Assembly (NCBI GenBank): GCA_944393745.1
Contig: CALYBD010000022.1
Coordinates: 1 to 40,888, forward strand
Source: an uncultured Alphaproteobacteria bacterium
Lineage (GTDB): Bacteria; Pseudomonadota; Alphaproteobacteria; CAAGCB01; CAG-977
DNA length: 40,888 nt
Reading direction: 5' to 3'
The notes under the pieces are model-generated. The model saw only the letters and a list, made by a program, of their open reading frames with translations. It was not told where the DNA came from and searched no databases. Positions 89 to 36,855 of this stretch are shown in pieces. Positions within the stretch are counted from its first letter, which is position 1. Each line of letters opens with the position of its first letter. Both the position numbers and the translations under genes were made by a program.

Positions 89-328
89 TTGAAACAGCCT
101 GAAAATATTGTAGCAAAAACAAGAAACGATAGCCAGTTAAAAAACTTTTTCCGCTTTTTAAAAAATGAATTTTCGGGGGATAAGATGAAATTTTTATGTT
201 ATATGTTATCTGTTTGAAATAAAACAAAAAATCTATTTTTTTTTATGTTGTGTTGTGTACTTTTTGGCATGCTAAAAATCGCGCTTTTTTACCGTATTTT
301 GATGCTGTCTTTGGGAATAACGTCCTTC

Positions 329-531
329 CGGCTGGCAGCTACCCGTGCGGGGATCATGTCTTCCGGACAGGGGATCAGATCGTACCGGCGGGAAGAACCC
401 CAAAAAAACTGATGCCCCTGCGGCTGGCAGCTACCCGTGCGGGGATCATGTCTTCCGGACAGGGGATCAGATCGTGCCGGCGGGAAGAACTCCAAAAAAA
501 CTGATGCCCCTGCGGCTAGCAGCCCGTACGG
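329..531. repeat. Tandem 92-bp repeat, two full copies plus a fragment
   Basis: Copies lie at 329-420 and 421-512 and differ at only two positions (384/476 and 399/491). A third partial copy at 513-531 carries a substitution and a 3-base deletion. Each unit contains GGGGATCA twice, 22 bp apart, and ends in an A-run. The unit is GC-richer than the flanking DNA. Because 92 is not a multiple of three, the repeat cannot encode a repeated peptide. It sits immediately downstream of uup. Confidence 0.9.
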
Positions 532-537
532 CTAGTA

Positions 538-2325
538 CTACGGCAGCAGTTCCAGCCACCGGGTTTCCTTTTCGTCCAATCGTTGTTTTGCCGTTTCCAA
601 ATCAGCGGCGATTTTTTCAAATTCGGCCGGCGATTTGGCGTAAAAGTCCGGATCAGACAGCTTTTCTTCCATTACTTTAATTTGTTGTTCCAGATCGGCG
701 ATTTCGCCCGGCAGCATTTCCAACGCCCGTTTGTCATTGTAGGATAAACGGATTGCTTTCGGACGTTCCGGACGGTTTTGTTTTTTTACGGGTTCTTTGA
801 CGGGCGGAAGATTTTTCTGTTCTTTTTCTTTGATTTTTTCAAGCAGGTTTGAACACGAATCAACATATTCGACAACACTGCCGTCACCGGCCATATACAG
901 CAATGACGTTGCCGTATTGTCCAGAAAATCACGATCATGGCTGACGATTAAAACAGTGCCTTTGTAATCTTCCAAAGCGTCCTGCAATAAATCCAACGTG
1001 TCCATGTCCAAATCGTTTGTCGGTTCGTCCAGAACAAGAAAATTTGAAGGCCTGGCCAATTCGCGCGCCAAAATCAACCTGTTTTTTTCACCGCCCGATA
1101 AAACAAAAACAGGTGTGTTTGCCTGCGCCGGTGAAAATAAAAAGTCTTTTAAATAAGAATAAACGTGACGCAGTTCGCCTTTGACAAAGACATGATCCCC
1201 GCCTTCGGGACAAAGTGTTTCTTTCAGCGTTTTCGAACAATCCAAAACGGCTCTGTTTTGATCGAAATAAATTTCCTGAATCGTTTTCGCCAGACGTATG
1301 CTTCCCGTATCGGGTTCCAGCCTGCCGGTCAACAGCTTGATCAAAGTCGTTTTCCCGACACCGTTTGCCCCGATAATGCCGATTTTATTGCCTTGCATAA
1401 CGCGCAACGAAAAATCTTTCACAATCGGTCGACCGTTAAAAGATTTTGAAATATGCTTTGCATCAATAATCAATTTGGACTGGACGGAACCGTTATCAAT
1501 ATTAAAGTCTACCGATCCGGTCTTTTTTATCTGATTGCGTCGTTCGCCGCGCAGTTCGTGCAATCTGTGCAATCGTCCCTGATTGCGTTTGCGGCGCGCC
1601 GTAACGCCTTTGTGCAACCATTGCATTTCGGCATCTATTTTTTTATTCAGGCGATTTTGTTCGGCTGTTTCCTGTTCGTAAACGGCGTCCCGCCAGTCTT
1701 CAAAAGCGTCAAATCCTTTATCAAAAGTACGCGCAATACCGCGGTCAAGCCAGATCATACCGTCACAAACGTGTTTTAAAAAAGCGCGATCATGACTGAT
1801 AACAACCAAAGCGCCGTTGAATTTGGCAAGGATTTCTTCCAGCTTTTCAATTGTTGTAATATCCAAATGGTTGGTCGGTTCGTCCAACAATAAAATATCG
1901 GGATCATTGATTAAAGCGCGCGCCAGGGCGGCTTTTTTCTTTTCGCCGCCGGACGCCGTTTGCGGATCGGCGGTTTCGGCAATTTTCAGGCGTTCGATTA
2001 AGATGTCGGCTTTGTATGCCAAATCCGATTGATGTTCGCCCAGCCCGGATAAAACAACGTCGCGCAGCGTGGCAAAACCGGGCAGGTCGTCTTCTTGTGC
2101 CATATAGGAAACAATTGTTCCGGGCTGTAAAAAGATGTCCGCCTTGTCTGTTTCCGTCTGACCTGCAATGACTTTTAATAAAGTAGACTTTCCCGATCCG
2201 TTGCGCCCGATCAGGCAATATTTTCGCCCTTTGGACAAATACAATTCCAATCCGGTAAACAACGGATGTTCGCCGAATTGCAAATGGGCATTTTTGATTG
2301 TGTAAACCGGAATATCAAAATCCAT
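538..2325 (-). CDS. uup: ABC-F family ATPase, Uup-like
   Basis: This 595-residue soluble protein has two ABC ATPase domains and no membrane segments, the architecture of ABC-F ribosome- or DNA-associated ATPases. Domain 1 has Walker A GRNGSGKST near residues 40-48, signature SGGEKKK near 125 and Walker B DILLLDEPTNHLD near 143-155. Domain 2 has GANGVGKTT, SGGEKNR and LVLDEPTNDLD. After a Lys/Pro-rich linker, the last ~70 residues form a charged coiled coil (LEQQIKVMEEKL and following), as in Uup. Uup homologues affect precise excision of transposons and ribosome or DNA-branch handling. It is the last gene of a leftward run ppk-pap-uup, nine bases after the pap stop. The Uup assignment rests on the C-terminal domain. 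Confidence 0.9.
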   Translation of the reverse strand: MDFDIPVYTIKNAHLQFGEHPLFTGLELYLSKGRKYCLIGRNGSGKSTLLKVIAGQTETDKADIFLQPGTIVSYMAQEDDLPGFATLRDVVLSGLGEHQSDLAYKADILIERLKIAETADPQTASGGEKKKAALARALINDPDILLLDEPTNHLDITTIEKLEEILAKFNGALVVISHDRAFLKHVCDGMIWLDRGIARTFDKGFDAFEDWRDAVYEQETAEQNRLNKKIDAEMQWLHKGVTARRKRNQGRLHRLHELRGERRNQIKKTGSVDFNIDNGSVQSKLIIDAKHISKSFNGRPIVKDFSLRVMQGNKIGIIGANGVGKTTLIKLLTGRLEPDTGSIRLAKTIQEIYFDQNRAVLDCSKTLKETLCPEGGDHVFVKGELRHVYSYLKDFLFSPAQANTPVFVLSGGEKNRLILARELARPSNFLVLDEPTNDLDMDTLDLLQDALEDYKGTVLIVSHDRDFLDNTATSLLYMAGDGSVVEYVDSCSNLLEKIKEKEQKNLPPVKEPVKKQNRPERPKAIRLSYNDKRALEMLPGEIADLEQQIKVMEEKLSDPDFYAKSPAEFEKIAADLETAKQRLDEKETRWLELLP

Positions 2326-30609: not shown

Positions 30610-31578
30610 TTAGTCGGATTGTTTTTCCGGGTTGTCCGGAATTTCCGTATATTGCGGATCGGTCAAAATGGCGATCAGTTCGTCTTTTACCGCTGCCGCC
30701 TGATCCAGATCAATTTGACAGGTGCCGACATTTGCGTGCCCGCCGCCGCCGTATTGCAACATTAATTCGCCGATATTGATAATATTTGACCGGTTCAGAA
30801 TGGATTTGCCGACCGCATAAACAATCCGCTGACCGTTAATACGCCACATTGCGTGCATGGAAACATTAATATCGGGATACAGCGCATAGATCATAAACCG
30901 ATTGCCGGCATAGATGATGTCTTCGTTCAGCATATCGATATAGGCCAGGTTTTTATAAATGGTCGTCTGGCGTTTCAACTGTTCAATAAATTTTTCCTGA
31001 TGAGCAAAGTACAAATCGACGCGTTCTTTGACATCGGGCATTTCCAACACTTCCGCCGGATCGTGTTCGCGGCAGAAATCAATCAGGTTCATCATCAGCT
31101 GATAGTTTGAAATTCTGAAATTGTGGAATCGTCCCAGCCCCGTCCGGGAATCCATAATAAAGCTCAGTAACGTCCAGCCGGTCGGGTGCAGAATATCGTC
31201 AATCGTGTAATCGGCGCTGTCGGCTTTGTCAACGGCGGTCATCATTTCTTCGGAAATATTTTTAAAGCGTTCTTTGCCGCCGAAAGTTTCCCAGACAATG
31301 CGTGCTGCCGACGGCGCCTGCGGATTTAAGTAGCTGTTGCTTTTCTTTCCGACGCGCGCCAGTTCGCTGATGTGATGATCAAAAACATAAGAAGCTGCCT
31401 TGGAATAAGGCAGATTTGTAATGATATCGCCCTGTTTTATATCGACCAATCCGTCCTGTACGTCTTTGGGGTGGACGAATTTAATTTCATCGATTAAGTC
31501 TAATTCTTTCAGTAAAATCGCGCAAACCAGACCGTCAAAATCGCTGCGCGTGACCAAGCGGAATCTGTCATCAACCAT
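30610..31578 (-). CDS. DHH-family phosphoesterase (paralogue B)
   Basis: This 322-residue protein has the DHH superfamily layout. RSDFDGLVCAILLKE near residues 11-25 stands in for the usual DxDG metal motif. FDHHIS near 66-71 is the DHH signature, and a DHHA1-type end has LQYGGGGHANVGTCQI. The family includes exopolyphosphatases, NrnA nano-RNases and cyclic dinucleotide hydrolases. The ppk operon elsewhere in the window makes polyphosphate tempting, but nothing here settles it. It lies 17 bases downstream of a close paralogue in the same direction and probably shares its transcript. Confidence 0.78.
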   Translation of the reverse strand: MVDDRFRLVTRSDFDGLVCAILLKELDLIDEIKFVHPKDVQDGLVDIKQGDIITNLPYSKAASYVFDHHISELARVGKKSNSYLNPQAPSAARIVWETFGGKERFKNISEEMMTAVDKADSADYTIDDILHPTGWTLLSFIMDSRTGLGRFHNFRISNYQLMMNLIDFCREHDPAEVLEMPDVKERVDLYFAHQEKFIEQLKRQTTIYKNLAYIDMLNEDIIYAGNRFMIYALYPDINVSMHAMWRINGQRIVYAVGKSILNRSNIINIGELMLQYGGGGHANVGTCQIDLDQAAAVKDELIAILTDPQYTEIPDNPEKQSD

Positions 31579-31595
31579 AAGAAAAAAGCCTTGTT

Positions 31596-32522
31596 TTATA
31601 CGTCTTGAACCATAGCGGTAATAATTTCTTTGCGAACCTTTTCGGCCTGATCGACAGGCACCTGACAGGTTCCCGCGGCGATATGTCCGCCGCCGTTGTA
31701 TTGCAGCATAAATTCACCGATATTCATTTTTGATGTTCGGTTGAAAATGGATTTTCCGGCGGCAAACACAACGTTGCGTTTGTTTTTTCCCCAGATTTCA
31801 TGAACGGAAATATTGATCTGCGGGAACAAAGCATAAACCATGAATCGGTTGCCGGCGTAAATGACCTCTTCATCGCGCAGATAGATATGAGCGGCCGTTT
31901 TATGGATTCGCGTGCATTTTTTCAGCTGTTCGATGAATTTGTCTTTGTGTTCGAAATACAGATTGACGCGTTCTTTGACATCTTCGTCTTGCAGAATTTC
32001 GTCAACGCTGTGTGTGCGGCACAAGTCTACCAGCTTCATCATCAAAGCATAATTGGTAATGCGGAAGTTTTTAAACCGTCCCAATCCGGTTCTGGCGTCC
32101 ATGATAAAAGCCAGCAACGTCCACCCGGTCGGATTCATGATTTGATCTATCGTATATTTTGCGGAATCGGCAACGTCAACGGCTTCCATCAACGAAGCGG
32201 GAATATTTTTAAATCGTTCTTCGGCACCGTAGTATTCGTAAACAACGCGTGCGGCAGAGGGCGAATTCGGATAAACGATATGATTCGGCGGACTGATGAC
32301 GCGGGATAATTCACTGATATGATGATCAAAGGCAATAAAAACGCCGTCCACATAAGGCAGATTTGCCGTAATGTCCATATCCGTAATGGATATTCGGCCG
32401 TCCTGCATATCTTTGGGGTGAACGAACCGGATTTCATCAATAATATCCAGTTCTTTCAACAGTGCCGCGCAGACCAACCCGTCAAAATCGCTGCGTGTCA
32501 GCAGTCGTTTTTTTGCCAGCAT
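31596..32522 (-). CDS. DHH-family phosphoesterase (paralogue A)
   Basis: This 308-residue protein is collinear with the downstream gene (RSDFDGLVCAALLKE, FDHHIS, and PTGWTLLAFIMDARTGLGRF against PTGWTLLSFIMDSRTGLGRF). The C-terminal motif is NGGGHIAAGTCQ, with Asn for the first Gly of the partner. It has a good AAGGAG ribosome site and is probably the promoter-proximal gene. The pair may form a heteromer or have split substrates. Both lack membrane segments, so they act in the cytoplasm. Confidence 0.78.
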   Translation of the reverse strand: MLAKKRLLTRSDFDGLVCAALLKELDIIDEIRFVHPKDMQDGRISITDMDITANLPYVDGVFIAFDHHISELSRVISPPNHIVYPNSPSAARVVYEYYGAEERFKNIPASLMEAVDVADSAKYTIDQIMNPTGWTLLAFIMDARTGLGRFKNFRITNYALMMKLVDLCRTHSVDEILQDEDVKERVNLYFEHKDKFIEQLKKCTRIHKTAAHIYLRDEEVIYAGNRFMVYALFPQINISVHEIWGKNKRNVVFAAGKSIFNRTSKMNIGEFMLQYNGGGHIAAGTCQVPVDQAEKVRKEIITAMVQDV

Positions 32523-33849: not shown

Positions 33850-33942
33850 TTATTTACTGGACAGTTTTTCAAAATTTTTGTATATTTTTGTCAAGAAGGC
33901 GATGTTGAATCGCCGTAACCGATTTTTTTGAGGTGAAATCTG

Positions 33943-34764
33943 ATGCGGGAAGATAATTTTGTTCACGTTAAGCGCGAACGTAAAAAAGGAAAAGGTCACG
34001 GGAAAAACGGCCAAAGACAACAAAATAATGCTGCCGGCGGTTTTTATTCCGACGGTCATCATAACAAAGACCAGCGGGAGGGTAATTTTTCTTTTGATAC
34101 GATACACGGCCTGAAATTAAAGGAAGTCGAATATACGGTTCCTTCAAAGGCGGAACGCGTTGCCAGACGGGCAGAATTTAACGGCGTTCGTGATGAAGAC
34201 GGCAATGTCGTTGTTGAAGGTGTTCGGTCCAAATTTTTAAAAATGCTGGCAAACGAACATGAAAAAGAACTGGTTGAACGCTTAGGGCTGACCGAACGTG
34301 ACATTCAGGGAATGCGCGAAGGCTATACGCCGAACGGTTTTAACGTACATCACAAGCTGGCTTTGCACGGCGGCGGCAAAAATGAATTTTCGAATTTTAT
34401 CTTAACGCCGCTTTATCCGCATGACCAATGGCACAAGGACGTGATGGACGCCCAGTTGCTGGGGATTCGCGAAGGCGAAACGCGTAAAATTAAAATTCCT
34501 TGGACGGACGAAATGATTTACGATCCGAAACAGTTCGGCTTTACCAAAGAAAACCAGCCGGTTAAGCCGAATTACACATCAAATGTCAATCCGGCCAATT
34601 ATCCCGAATTATATAAACCGGAACACATCAGCGTAGCGAAACGTCAGAAAGACATGGCGGAATTTTATGCTTCTCTTGATGCGAAAAAGGCCGAAGGACA
34701 GAAAAAACAGGCGCCGATGAAAACGGCCGTCCGTCAGATTGTCCGCAACAGACAGCGGGGATAA
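33943..34764 (+). CDS. Putative HNH endonuclease (copy 1)
   Basis: This is a 273-residue protein with no signal peptide. Residues 134-164 carry an HNH (beta-beta-alpha metal) signature like that of colicin-type DNases: NVHHKLALHGGG (H136, H137), FSNFILTP (N151) and YPHDQWH (H160, H164). Before it lies a helical block ending RSKFLKMLANEHE (~95-107), and after it YDPKQFGF and a basic tail. The first ~48 residues are a low-complexity region rich in Lys, Gly, His and Gln. GAGGTG precedes the start. A paralogue lies 1.3 kb downstream. Nuclease activity is inferred, and no immunity gene is recognised nearby. Confidence 0.65.
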   Translation: MREDNFVHVKRERKKGKGHGKNGQRQQNNAAGGFYSDGHHNKDQREGNFSFDTIHGLKLKEVEYTVPSKAERVARRAEFNGVRDEDGNVVVEGVRSKFLKMLANEHEKELVERLGLTERDIQGMREGYTPNGFNVHHKLALHGGGKNEFSNFILTPLYPHDQWHKDVMDAQLLGIREGETRKIKIPWTDEMIYDPKQFGFTKENQPVKPNYTSNVNPANYPELYKPEHISVAKRQKDMAEFYASLDAKKAEGQKKQAPMKTAVRQIVRNRQRG

Positions 34765-34782
34765 AAAATCTGTTTGTATAAC

Positions 34783-34817
34783 AGCGCAGAAATCTGTAAG
34801 GTTTCTGCGCTTTTTGT
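34783..34817 (+). terminator. Terminator after HNH copy 1
   Basis: A perfect 10-bp stem AGCGCAGAAA / TTTCTGCGCT with a 9-base loop and T-run insulates the MFS gene from the nuclease gene. It also argues against the MFS start at 34774. Confidence 0.92.
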
Positions 34818-34842
34818 TTGTATTGATGTGAGCCTGTCAAAA

Positions 34843-36006
34843 ATGCAACGCAACCTTGTTTTGTTTAAATGGGATTATTTTTTCGGCGGTATGTGGCCGA
34901 TGACGGCTGTCATGGCCGTTTATTTTCAGGAAATCACGCGTTCGTATACCGCGGCAATGTCTGTTTTTTCTTTGTGTTGTTTGTCTCAGGCCGTTTTAGA
35001 GGTGCCGACGGGCATTTTTTCCGATAAGATCGGCCGTCGGCAAACACTGATTTTGTCGGCGCTTTCTTTGATTATTTGTCTGACGGCCTGGGCGGCGGCG
35101 GGACAATTGAATTGGACCGCATTGCTGTTTGCGGGCGCTTTGTTCTGGGGTATGAGCGATGCACTGATGTCGGGCACACTTGATGCGCTGATTTTTGAAA
35201 CCGTTGAAGAGTTGGATCAAAAGCAAAACTTCGATCTGATTTATGCTTCCTGCCGGTTGTATAATCAGGCCGGACTGTTTATCAGCGTTCTTTTGGGAAC
35301 GGGAATAATGTATTTCTGGTCCTTGCAGGCATTGGCCTGGATATCGATTCTGCCGATGACGGGACAGCTTGTCGTCGCTTTGTTTTACAGGAATCCCCGA
35401 AAAGAAAAATCGGAACCGGCGACAACAACGGCGCATTTTAAACAAGCCTGCCGTCAACTGTGGGAAAATAAACGGTTGCGCTTGTTCGGTTTGATCGAAA
35501 TTTTGGATACATCGGTTAATATGACGATCCACCGTTTCGAAGGATTGTATTTTGAAAATCTGATAGCCGTCTGGCTGATTAATGTTGTACGCGCCGTCAA
35601 ACAGCTGGCCGGAATAATCAGTTATGCCGCAGTTGCCCGATTGCGCCGTTTCGGTTCGCTGACGTTATTGCAGTTTTCTGTCGGTGCCTGCATTGTTTTG
35701 CAAATGACGGCGCTGATGATTAATAATGTGTTTTCGGCGGTGTTAATGCCGTTAACGAATTTGTTTTTCGGCGTGACGACAACGGCAAAGACCGATTTGC
35801 TTCAACGGGAATTTCCCGATCGTCAGCGGGCAACGGCCGGATCGATTCTTTCTTTGCTGAGTGCCGTTTTTCAGGCCGTACTTTATGCCGTTATCGGATT
35901 GCTGGCTGATTTTCGGGGTGTTCGTACGGCTTTGTTTTGCTGCGTTTTTTGCCATATAAGCGTTGTTTTTTTGGGAAGAACCGCGCAGAAAAAAGAAAAA
36001 TTATAA
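34843..36006 (+). CDS. MFS transporter
   Basis: This protein of about 387 residues has around 11-12 transmembrane helices. It starts MQRNLVLFKWDYFFGGMWPM and has the motif-A-like loop FSDKIGRRQTLIL between helices 2 and 3, diagnostic of the major facilitator superfamily. The charged middle loop (RNPRKEKSEPATTT) separates the two halves. The 34843 start comes after the preceding terminator. Its own ribosome site is poor. Substrate is unknown. It sits between the two HNH genes in the same direction and may be unrelated to them. Confidence 0.85.
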   Translation: MQRNLVLFKWDYFFGGMWPMTAVMAVYFQEITRSYTAAMSVFSLCCLSQAVLEVPTGIFSDKIGRRQTLILSALSLIICLTAWAAAGQLNWTALLFAGALFWGMSDALMSGTLDALIFETVEELDQKQNFDLIYASCRLYNQAGLFISVLLGTGIMYFWSLQALAWISILPMTGQLVVALFYRNPRKEKSEPATTTAHFKQACRQLWENKRLRLFGLIEILDTSVNMTIHRFEGLYFENLIAVWLINVVRAVKQLAGIISYAAVARLRRFGSLTLLQFSVGACIVLQMTALMINNVFSAVLMPLTNLFFGVTTTAKTDLLQREFPDRQRATAGSILSLLSAVFQAVLYAVIGLLADFRGVRTALFCCVFCHISVVFLGRTAQKKEKL

Positions 36007-36086
36007 AATTTTTGTTGATTTTTTTGTCTATTTTCTCGTACACTTTTCTTAAAGGCTTTATATTTGCTCTAAAGGAGTTAAAAAAA

Positions 36087-36821
36087 ATGATTTCCGAATA
36101 TCGTTTGGTTCATGCGAAACGCAGTCACAAAGGCAGCAAAGGCGGCAAAGAAGGGAAAAAAGCGTCTTATAGTGCCCAACAGCGTGCAGGAGAATTTAAT
36201 TTTGACACGATTCACGGCATGAAATTAAAAAAGGTCGTCTATCATGTGCCTTCCAGTGCCGAACGCAAAGCCAGACGTGCGGAATTTCAGGGGCACGACG
36301 GCAAGGAAGGAATGCGCTCCAAATTTTTAAAAATGCTGGCAAACGAACATGAACAAGAATTGCGGGATCAGTTGGGATTCACGGACGTTGAAATTAATTT
36401 AATGAAGCAGGGCCGTTCCGTTCCCGGATACAACGTGCATCATAAACTGCCGATTCACGGCGGCGGCAAAAACGAATTTTCGAATTTTATCTTAACGCCG
36501 CTTTATCCGCACGATCAGTGGCATCACGATATTTTGGATCCGCAGATTGCCGATTGCATGGGGGCCGGACAATCCAAAGAAGTCATGCTGCCCTGGACGG
36601 ATGCCATGATTTATGATCCGAAACAGTTCGGGTTTACAAAGGATAATACCAAAGTACAACCGAATTATACGTCTCGCGTTAATCCGAATAATTATCCCCG
36701 GATTTATACGGCCGAACAGGTTGCCGATGCGGCTAACCGCAAAAAGGAACTGGCGAAGTTTGCTCCGCCGGCACAAAATAACATTGCTTTGGCCGCATTG
36801 AATAACGCCAGACAGCGCTGA
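36087..36821 (+). CDS. Putative HNH endonuclease (copy 2)
   Basis: This 244-residue paralogue of the gene at 33943 has NVHHKLPIHGGG (H118, H119), FSNFILTP (N133) and YPHDQWH (H142, H146), the same HNH layout. RSKFLKMLANEHE and YDPKQFGF are shared. The N-terminal ~35 residues are again Lys/Gly/Ser-rich but differ in sequence. The start at 36087 has AAAGGAG nine bases upstream. A longer in-frame start at 35937 would add a hydrophobic stretch but lies inside the MFS gene. A terminator follows. The role is unknown, as for copy 1. Confidence 0.65.
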   Translation: MISEYRLVHAKRSHKGSKGGKEGKKASYSAQQRAGEFNFDTIHGMKLKKVVYHVPSSAERKARRAEFQGHDGKEGMRSKFLKMLANEHEQELRDQLGFTDVEINLMKQGRSVPGYNVHHKLPIHGGGKNEFSNFILTPLYPHDQWHHDILDPQIADCMGAGQSKEVMLPWTDAMIYDPKQFGFTKDNTKVQPNYTSRVNPNNYPRIYTAEQVADAANRKKELAKFAPPAQNNIALAALNNARQR

Positions 36822-36824
36822 TAT

Positions 36825-36855
36825 AAAAGACGGCTTTAAAGCCGTCTTTTTCTTT
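36825..36855 (+). terminator. Terminator after HNH copy 2
   Basis: A perfect palindrome AAAAGACGGC-TTTAAA-GCCGTCTTTT is followed by more Ts. Confidence 0.9.

Follow-up and report, generated by a model that had tools for sequence, protein, structure and literature searches.

The question raised by this locus is what an uncultured Alphaproteobacteria bacterium does with two related HNH-type nuclease genes that stand next to no immunity gene. The window analyzed here is a stretch of 40,888 nucleotides (GenBank assembly GCA_944393745.1, contig CALYBD010000022.1), and coordinates without another label refer to the whole of it. An earlier note on this DNA had described the two genes, here called HNH-A and HNH-B, as a pair without an immunity gene and hence no standard toxin set, and had considered a defense or phage-derived family. 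We reach a different view, which we hold with modest confidence: HNH-A and HNH-B probably belong to a lineage-wide set of HNH DNase effectors of a type IV secretion system (T4SS) that share a SUKH protein as immunity factor or chaperone, and in which one dead toxin–SUKH pair would have been domesticated at the coupling protein.

With respect to the nuclease domain itself, both open reading frames (ORFs) and their motifs were confirmed. The pattern NVHHK...GGGKNEFSNF...PHDQWH is present in HNH-A and HNH-B with the HH/N/H/H spacing of the colicin DNases, and the blocks RSKFLKMLANEHE and YDPKQFGF are also common to the two. The expectation that homologues keep these catalytic residues holds for the family alignments (A1 and A2), where HH, Asn and HxxxH are invariant or nearly so and correctly spaced, and fails for one group of paralogues, termed V, that loses the second His. 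Pfam and NCBIfam scans of the domain returned no model that attains its cut-off. Structure prediction, which the earlier note had recommended, gave an AF2 model (pLDDT 90.4) whose best structural neighbors are HNH nucleases at Z scores of only 4–6, specifically Cas8f-HNH (5.9), Rhs2-CT (4.9), pyocin AP41 (4.6) and ColE2/E7 (4.1), with ColE9 also matched. The domain is thus predicted to adopt the beta-beta-alpha-metal HNH fold of the colicin-DNase type. Colicins E2/E7/E9 and pyocin AP41 share the HH...N...HxxxH arrangement and the HNH fold (VIA Z 3.5–4.6); unlike them, the present proteins lack domains for receptor binding or translocation, and an Im-type immunity protein was not seen.

A tblastn search with the core (HNH-B residues 42–176) located it in Listeria, Cytobacillus, SPbeta-like phages of Bacillus, and Pantoea (E values of 1e-11 to 1e-7), and a genome scan added further Bacilli, Pseudomonas, Photobacterium and Myroides. 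Outside the lineage, the core forms the C-terminus of proteins of the LXG, RHS, pre-toxin-TG or another HNH type. The next gene in four annotated relative loci codes for a YrhA/SUKH family member, which in the phage case carries no name. Judged by these sequence relationships, the warhead appears to be the same nuclease domain that ends the LXG toxins of the type VII secretion system (T7SS) and the RHS polymorphic toxins. For LXG systems, Zhang et al. (2012, PMC3482391) list a Tox-ColE7 domain (HH,H,H) together with Imm-SUKH, and the LXG toxins YobL and YokI, whose warheads may differ from the present domain, destroy DNA in B. subtilis (PMC8321402). The likeness to these polymorphic toxins lies in a homologous nuclease domain and a partner of the YrhA/SUKH family NF038335. 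The differences are that the present domain is standalone, with its own basic termini, several paralogues per genome and no LXG/RHS carrier, that most copies lack an adjacent immunity gene, and that the secretion system to which the family is linked is a T4SS, not a T7SS. No N-terminal trafficking domain (LXG, RHS, PAAR, etc.) was found in HNH-A or HNH-B by the Pfam and NCBIfam scans.

These relationships also dispose us against phage-derived or homing HNH endonucleases, a reading that we find scarcely credible even though PHROG profiles 31266 and 14497 match the HNH proteins. The matches trace to LXG toxins, accompanied by SUKH genes, of SPbeta-like phages, and these were the sole phage matches. 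Moreover, the alphaproteobacterial copies lie in conserved gene orders (with pheA, queA or VirD4, the first two named by eye from sequence with no family search) around which no phage genes were recognized, and the syntenic, mainly vertical pattern already disfavors such an origin. Phage origin was therefore rejected as a candidate, as was a defense system, a PADLOC scan having returned no match.

Nor is the pair isolated. The home genome (G000) holds seven members of the family: besides HNH-A and HNH-B, contig C26 carries the tandem trio T1–T3 and the lone copy S, and contig C9 carries the paralogue V, which is embedded in a T4SS locus. Each of 12 searched genomes of the rumen and horse-gut alphaproteobacterial family f1 yielded 3–7 matches at the E cut-off used, many of them at orthologous positions. 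The family tree, midpoint-rooted and with several long branches, resolves clades A, B, T1, T2, T3, S and V, with V as one clade (support 100/99) and the LXG/RHS toxins as another (support 100/98). As a separate observation, G005 carries four strongly diverged members in tandem (L139:4535-8532, G005:C4) that share the basic N-terminus and end in ...AARDGR-like tails.

The claim that no immunity gene accompanies the family was overturned by the very neighborhood survey that the earlier note had proposed: YrhA/SUKH genes stand next to the relatives' domains and, in the home genome, directly downstream of S and of V, while HNH-A, HNH-B and the C26 trio have none. The two encoded proteins match NF038335 (YrhA; cut-off 55) at 104.8 bits for SUKH-S and 64.1 bits for SUKH-V. 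SUKH-S is strongly acidic, and its gene lies 3′ of copy S and 5′ of queA, on a different contig from HNH-A and HNH-B. A close relative of SUKH-S was present in 13/13 genomes tested and one second SUKH gene in 12/13 (one SUKH gene was found in G010). In G005, G009 and G010, SUKH-S still adjoins queA in the absence of a neighboring nuclease, with other family nucleases present in those genomes. Within the genus, SUKH-S is on average 88% identical to the home copy, SUKH-V 89%, QueA 85% and VirD4 93%, and the active nucleases 61–80%. Because SUKH-S outlives its neighboring nuclease and evolves more slowly than all of the toxins, a shared job for this protein is the best explanation. The gene order in SZUA-500 (G061) is pheA–nuclease–nuclease–SUKH–queA, and in f1 the trio adjoins pheA while SUKH-S adjoins queA, as if an ancestral pheA–queA cluster had been split in f1.

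A standalone toxin domain with an antidote on the chromosome, and with no Sec signal apparent, might also be viewed as an immobilized toxin–immunity remnant that serves as an intracellular defense, addiction or self-targeting system and is never secreted. We consider this very improbable, as HNH-A and HNH-B have no linked antidote, PADLOC recognized nothing, one paralogue is linked to VirD4, and strong conservation and shared tails are seen at different genomic positions.

The connection to secretion is provided by V. In the home genome, V and then the SUKH-V gene follow directly 3′ of VirD4. V adjoins VirD4 in 20/24 close-relative VirD4 genomes of the class sample, usually with SUKH behind it, and at 0/6 distant VirD4 loci. 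Across 385 genomes, the nuclease family occurs in 26 and the VirD4 clade in 24, with both present in 22 (Fisher p about 1e-29). The order VirD4–V–SUKH recurs in nine alphaproteobacterial families (f1, f3, f22, f32, f39, f48, f51, f70 and f90), and f157 and f69 have V–SUKH with no VirD4 at hand. V retains the nuclease domain but not the second catalytic His of HH (HI, HV, HL, HM, HQ or His-less). To judge from the titles of the structural matches, the lost position is the site of the H103A mutant among colicin E9–DNA crystal structures, and we take this second His to be the general base of that enzyme. Small genomes keep V although their active copies are few or divergent. Its AF2 model (pLDDT 70, core above 90) gave weak fold matches only, Cas8f-HNH among them; Legionella DotN was absent among the fold matches listed, a relation being still possible.

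As for the secretion system, the home genome has a protein-exporting T4SS of possibly incomplete gene content, with genes for two VirB8 proteins, VirB9 with a SPOR domain, VirB10, VirB11, VirD4 and VirB6. The giant VirB10 (L132:8847-15893, G000:C5) is 2348 aa long, and about 20 beta-flower repeats precede its TrbI domain. Open frames of 1300–2800 aa at the TrbI match recur in many relatives. Most genomes of the group also have a second VirD4-like gene (G000:C2:21994-24102, 37% identity), and a protein of 363 aa that is rich in Lys and is encoded in the T4SS locus (L037:2038-3129), ending ...AVAASKKRAATR, is a possible further substrate.

That one member is encoded directly 3′ of VirD4, that HNH proteins can nick DNA and that the family proteins are strongly basic would also suit a role inside the producer, in T4SS DNA handling (transfer or uptake, with nicking in the relaxase's place), with the SUKH proteins as regulators. 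This we judge improbable: the VirD4-linked member is the one without the catalytic His, the active copies are located in unrelated loci, and the relatives of the domain are secreted toxins with immunity genes. In our preferred reading, V and SUKH-V would be a former toxin–immunity pair, domesticated to serve in coupling or as an adaptor. Specifically, and more tentatively, we propose that the dead HNH toxin and the SUKH protein behind VirD4 might form an adaptor that recruits and silences the live nuclease effectors, with one shared SUKH serving them.

In terms of putative export signals, both protein termini are distinctive. The N-termini had been described as low-complexity and basic; they are indeed basic but not arbitrary, since an HxKR-type motif recurs across the family (35/53 family proteins versus 15/370 other genes). 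At the other end, Arg is found in the last three residues of 46/53 family proteins versus 84/370 other genes (p = 1e-19). Of 58 active-type tails from the core lineage, 56 have Arg among their last three positions; the mean charge of the 58 is +3.2 and none is neutral or negative. V proteins often end alike (IALKTMPGR, MIAQKSSLGR). The VirD4 proteins of f1 and f51/G061 have a long acidic tail, with 17–35 D/E in the last 50 residues, and most other relatives are without one. Arg-rich C-termini direct Agrobacterium effectors to their T4SS (PMC10025392); the present tails resemble those of the VirF/VirE type in being basic and Arg-containing, but are short and often have Arg as the very last residue, and no sequence relationship between the proteins was apparent. 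The Legionella coupling complex likewise reads charged tails (PMC5802825): proteins on the Dot/Icm coupling ATPase (DotL-DotM-DotN, IcmSW) recruit effectors partly through charged C-termini. The charges are reversed there, with acidic effector tails and a basic DotM, and homology of V or SUKH to DotM, DotN or IcmSW is not demonstrated.

In the mechanism that we propose, an active nuclease would be held inactive in the producer by the acidic SUKH-S, one SUKH serving all active copies. Its basic, Arg-ended tail would be recognized at the VirD4 coupling ATPase, with its acidic C-terminal tail, aided by V and SUKH-V. The nuclease would then pass through the chromosomal T4SS into a neighboring cell, bacterium or protist, and cut DNA there. 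Delivery and DNA cutting are supported by analogy, on the one hand with the LXG toxins YobL and YokI and on the other with the T4SS-delivered GHH DNase TfdA of Stenotrophomonas, which kills bacteria (PMC11253643). TfdA resembles the present family in being an HNH-superfamily DNase with a chromosomal VirB/VirD4 T4SS and an immunity-type partner; it differs in its subfamily (GHH) and has an XVIPCD domain, where in the present family only a short Arg-ended tail was recognized and immunity is apparently shared and unlinked. XVIPCD gave no match in HNH-A or HNH-B with Pfam and NCBIfam, neither of which was confirmed to contain such a model.

The nature of the target cell bears on a further alternative, in which these are T4SS effectors aimed at eukaryotes such as rumen or gut ciliates or other protists, and SUKH-S is mainly a secretion chaperone that silences them in the producer. 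The best-annotated relatives originate from rumen and horse faeces, several V-bearing genomes are as small (0.9–1.6 Mb) as those of host-restricted lineages, and the SUKH genes are few and conserved, unlike polymorphic loci for competitive toxins and immunity. We nevertheless think it unlikely, given that the warhead family is antibacterial elsewhere (LXG, RHS), that immunity-type partners answer a need of bacterial competition, and that no eukaryotic-type domain was found, no specific search for localization signals having been made.

Several observations weigh against secreted, SUKH-protected effectors as we envisage them. No SUKH gene adjoins HNH-A or HNH-B, so that protection would have to act in trans. 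V stands apart from VirD4 in f69, and the link between an acidic VirD4 tail and tailed nucleases is not strict: G013 carries a single nuclease of this kind but a VirD4 without an acidic tail, and in G058 (f48) the VirD4 tail is moderately acidic (21 D/E) and no active nuclease was found. Basic termini would also be expected of nucleic-acid-binding proteins. The structural matches are modest, as small HNH cores usually give, and Z values around the best one (5.9) can arise from a common arrangement. On the expression side, a sigma-70 scan found promoters not in excess.

The warhead and antidote families, and T4SS delivery of DNases, are already known. In the literature surveyed we found no precedent for the standalone multi-copy form, for a shared, unlinked SUKH or for a dead toxin and SUKH fixed behind VirD4, and a full-text search yielded nothing joining DotN, HNH and a coupling protein. 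A study of rumen ciliates and the prokaryotes that accompany them offered no information about the present lineage. If true, our proposal would join polymorphic toxins to type IV coupling complexes by showing that a dead toxin and its immunity protein became parts of a secretion machine, and would give little-studied gut (and other) Alphaproteobacteria a named family of T4SS effectors with an export tail. The origin of T4SS adaptors, an open question, would become testable through recombinant binding of SUKH to nuclease, SUKH-V to VirD4 and tail to VirD4.

Turning to the history of the pair, the inference of an old duplication under selection with gene conversion was upheld. Clades A and B each hold members from several genomes, and those of clade A span several genera of the family, which indicates that the duplication is old. 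Substitution at synonymous sites approaches saturation (pS about 0.7 in codon-aligned orthologues; 0.54–0.74 for A versus B within a genome), so that identical A/B tracts exceed chance. The longest identical A/B run measures 20–48 nt within a genome (six genomes) versus 11–32 nt between genomes (Mann-Whitney p = 4e-4). The exact identity of the two DNA blocks singled out earlier was verified: the G000 copies agree in both, and copies from other genomes differ from the G000 sequence at 5–9 sites in block 1 and 4–12 in block 2. This fits repeated short-tract gene conversion on top of the old duplication. Median NG86 dN/dS is 0.064 for A and 0.145 for B, with dS near saturation, and these low values imply that both proteins are kept by purifying selection. 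In G004, an HNH-B orthologue (G004:C2:53719-54423) contains in-frame stops, and the adjoining HNH-A is intact.

Table 1. Features of the HNH-A/HNH-B region, in window coordinates
Feature	Position	Strand	Basis
HNH-A, active-type HNH/colicin-DNase-like nuclease, 273 aa, pI 9.5	33943..34764	+	ORF
HNH-B, active-type HNH/colicin-DNase-like nuclease, 244 aa, pI 9.6	36087..36821	+	ORF
Ribosome-binding site GAGGTGA, HNH-A	33930..33936	+	read from sequence
Ribosome-binding site AAGGAG, HNH-B	36072..36077	+	read from sequence
N-terminal FVHVKRERKKGKG motif, HNH-A, common to other family members	33958..33996	+	
N-terminal LVHAKR motif, HNH-B	36105..36122	+	
Catalytic NVHHK...N...N...HxxxH segment, HNH-A	34342..34434	+	sequence; invariant alignment columns
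Catalytic NVHHK...N...N...HxxxH segment, HNH-B	36432..36524	+	sequence; invariant alignment columns
Putative gene-conversion tract 1, HNH-A copy, identical to 36318-36353	34228..34263	+	
Putative gene-conversion tract 1, HNH-B copy	36318..36353	+	
Putative gene-conversion tract 2, HNH-A copy, identical to 36474-36511	34384..34421	+	
Putative gene-conversion tract 2, HNH-B copy	36474..36511	+	
Basic C-terminal tail RQIVRNRQRG, HNH-A (putative T4SS signal)	34732..34761	+	
Basic C-terminal tail NNARQR, HNH-B	36801..36818	+	
Intrinsic terminator hairpin 3′ of HNH-A	34783..34811	+	terminator scan
Perfect palindrome then T-run 3′ of HNH-B (terminator)	36826..36849	+	read from sequence
MFS transporter (MFS_1), neighbor, outside the system	34840..36006	+	Pfam

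Each of the two genes has its own ribosome-binding site and terminator (Table 1), as had been noted. The HNH-B start is most likely the ATG at 36087, behind AAGGAG, nested in a longer ORF that opens at 35937. The terminator scan demands a loop of 3–8, and the HNH-B palindrome is therefore absent from its list. The MFS gene between the pair is real (Pfam MFS_1 at 4.8e-20), but the arrangement itself is confined to G000 and G003, with the gene near the pair in one further genome. It was accordingly rejected as a functional partner and is an incidental neighbor. Two tandem paralogous proteins of 322 and 308 aa, starting ...RLLTRSDFDGLVCA (window 30610-32522), adjoin the HNH pair in nearly all genomes of the family. 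Finally, a repeated stretch that translates as GDHVFRTGDQIVPAGRTPKK-like units occurs on different contigs (window 250-680 and L003:2147-2467).

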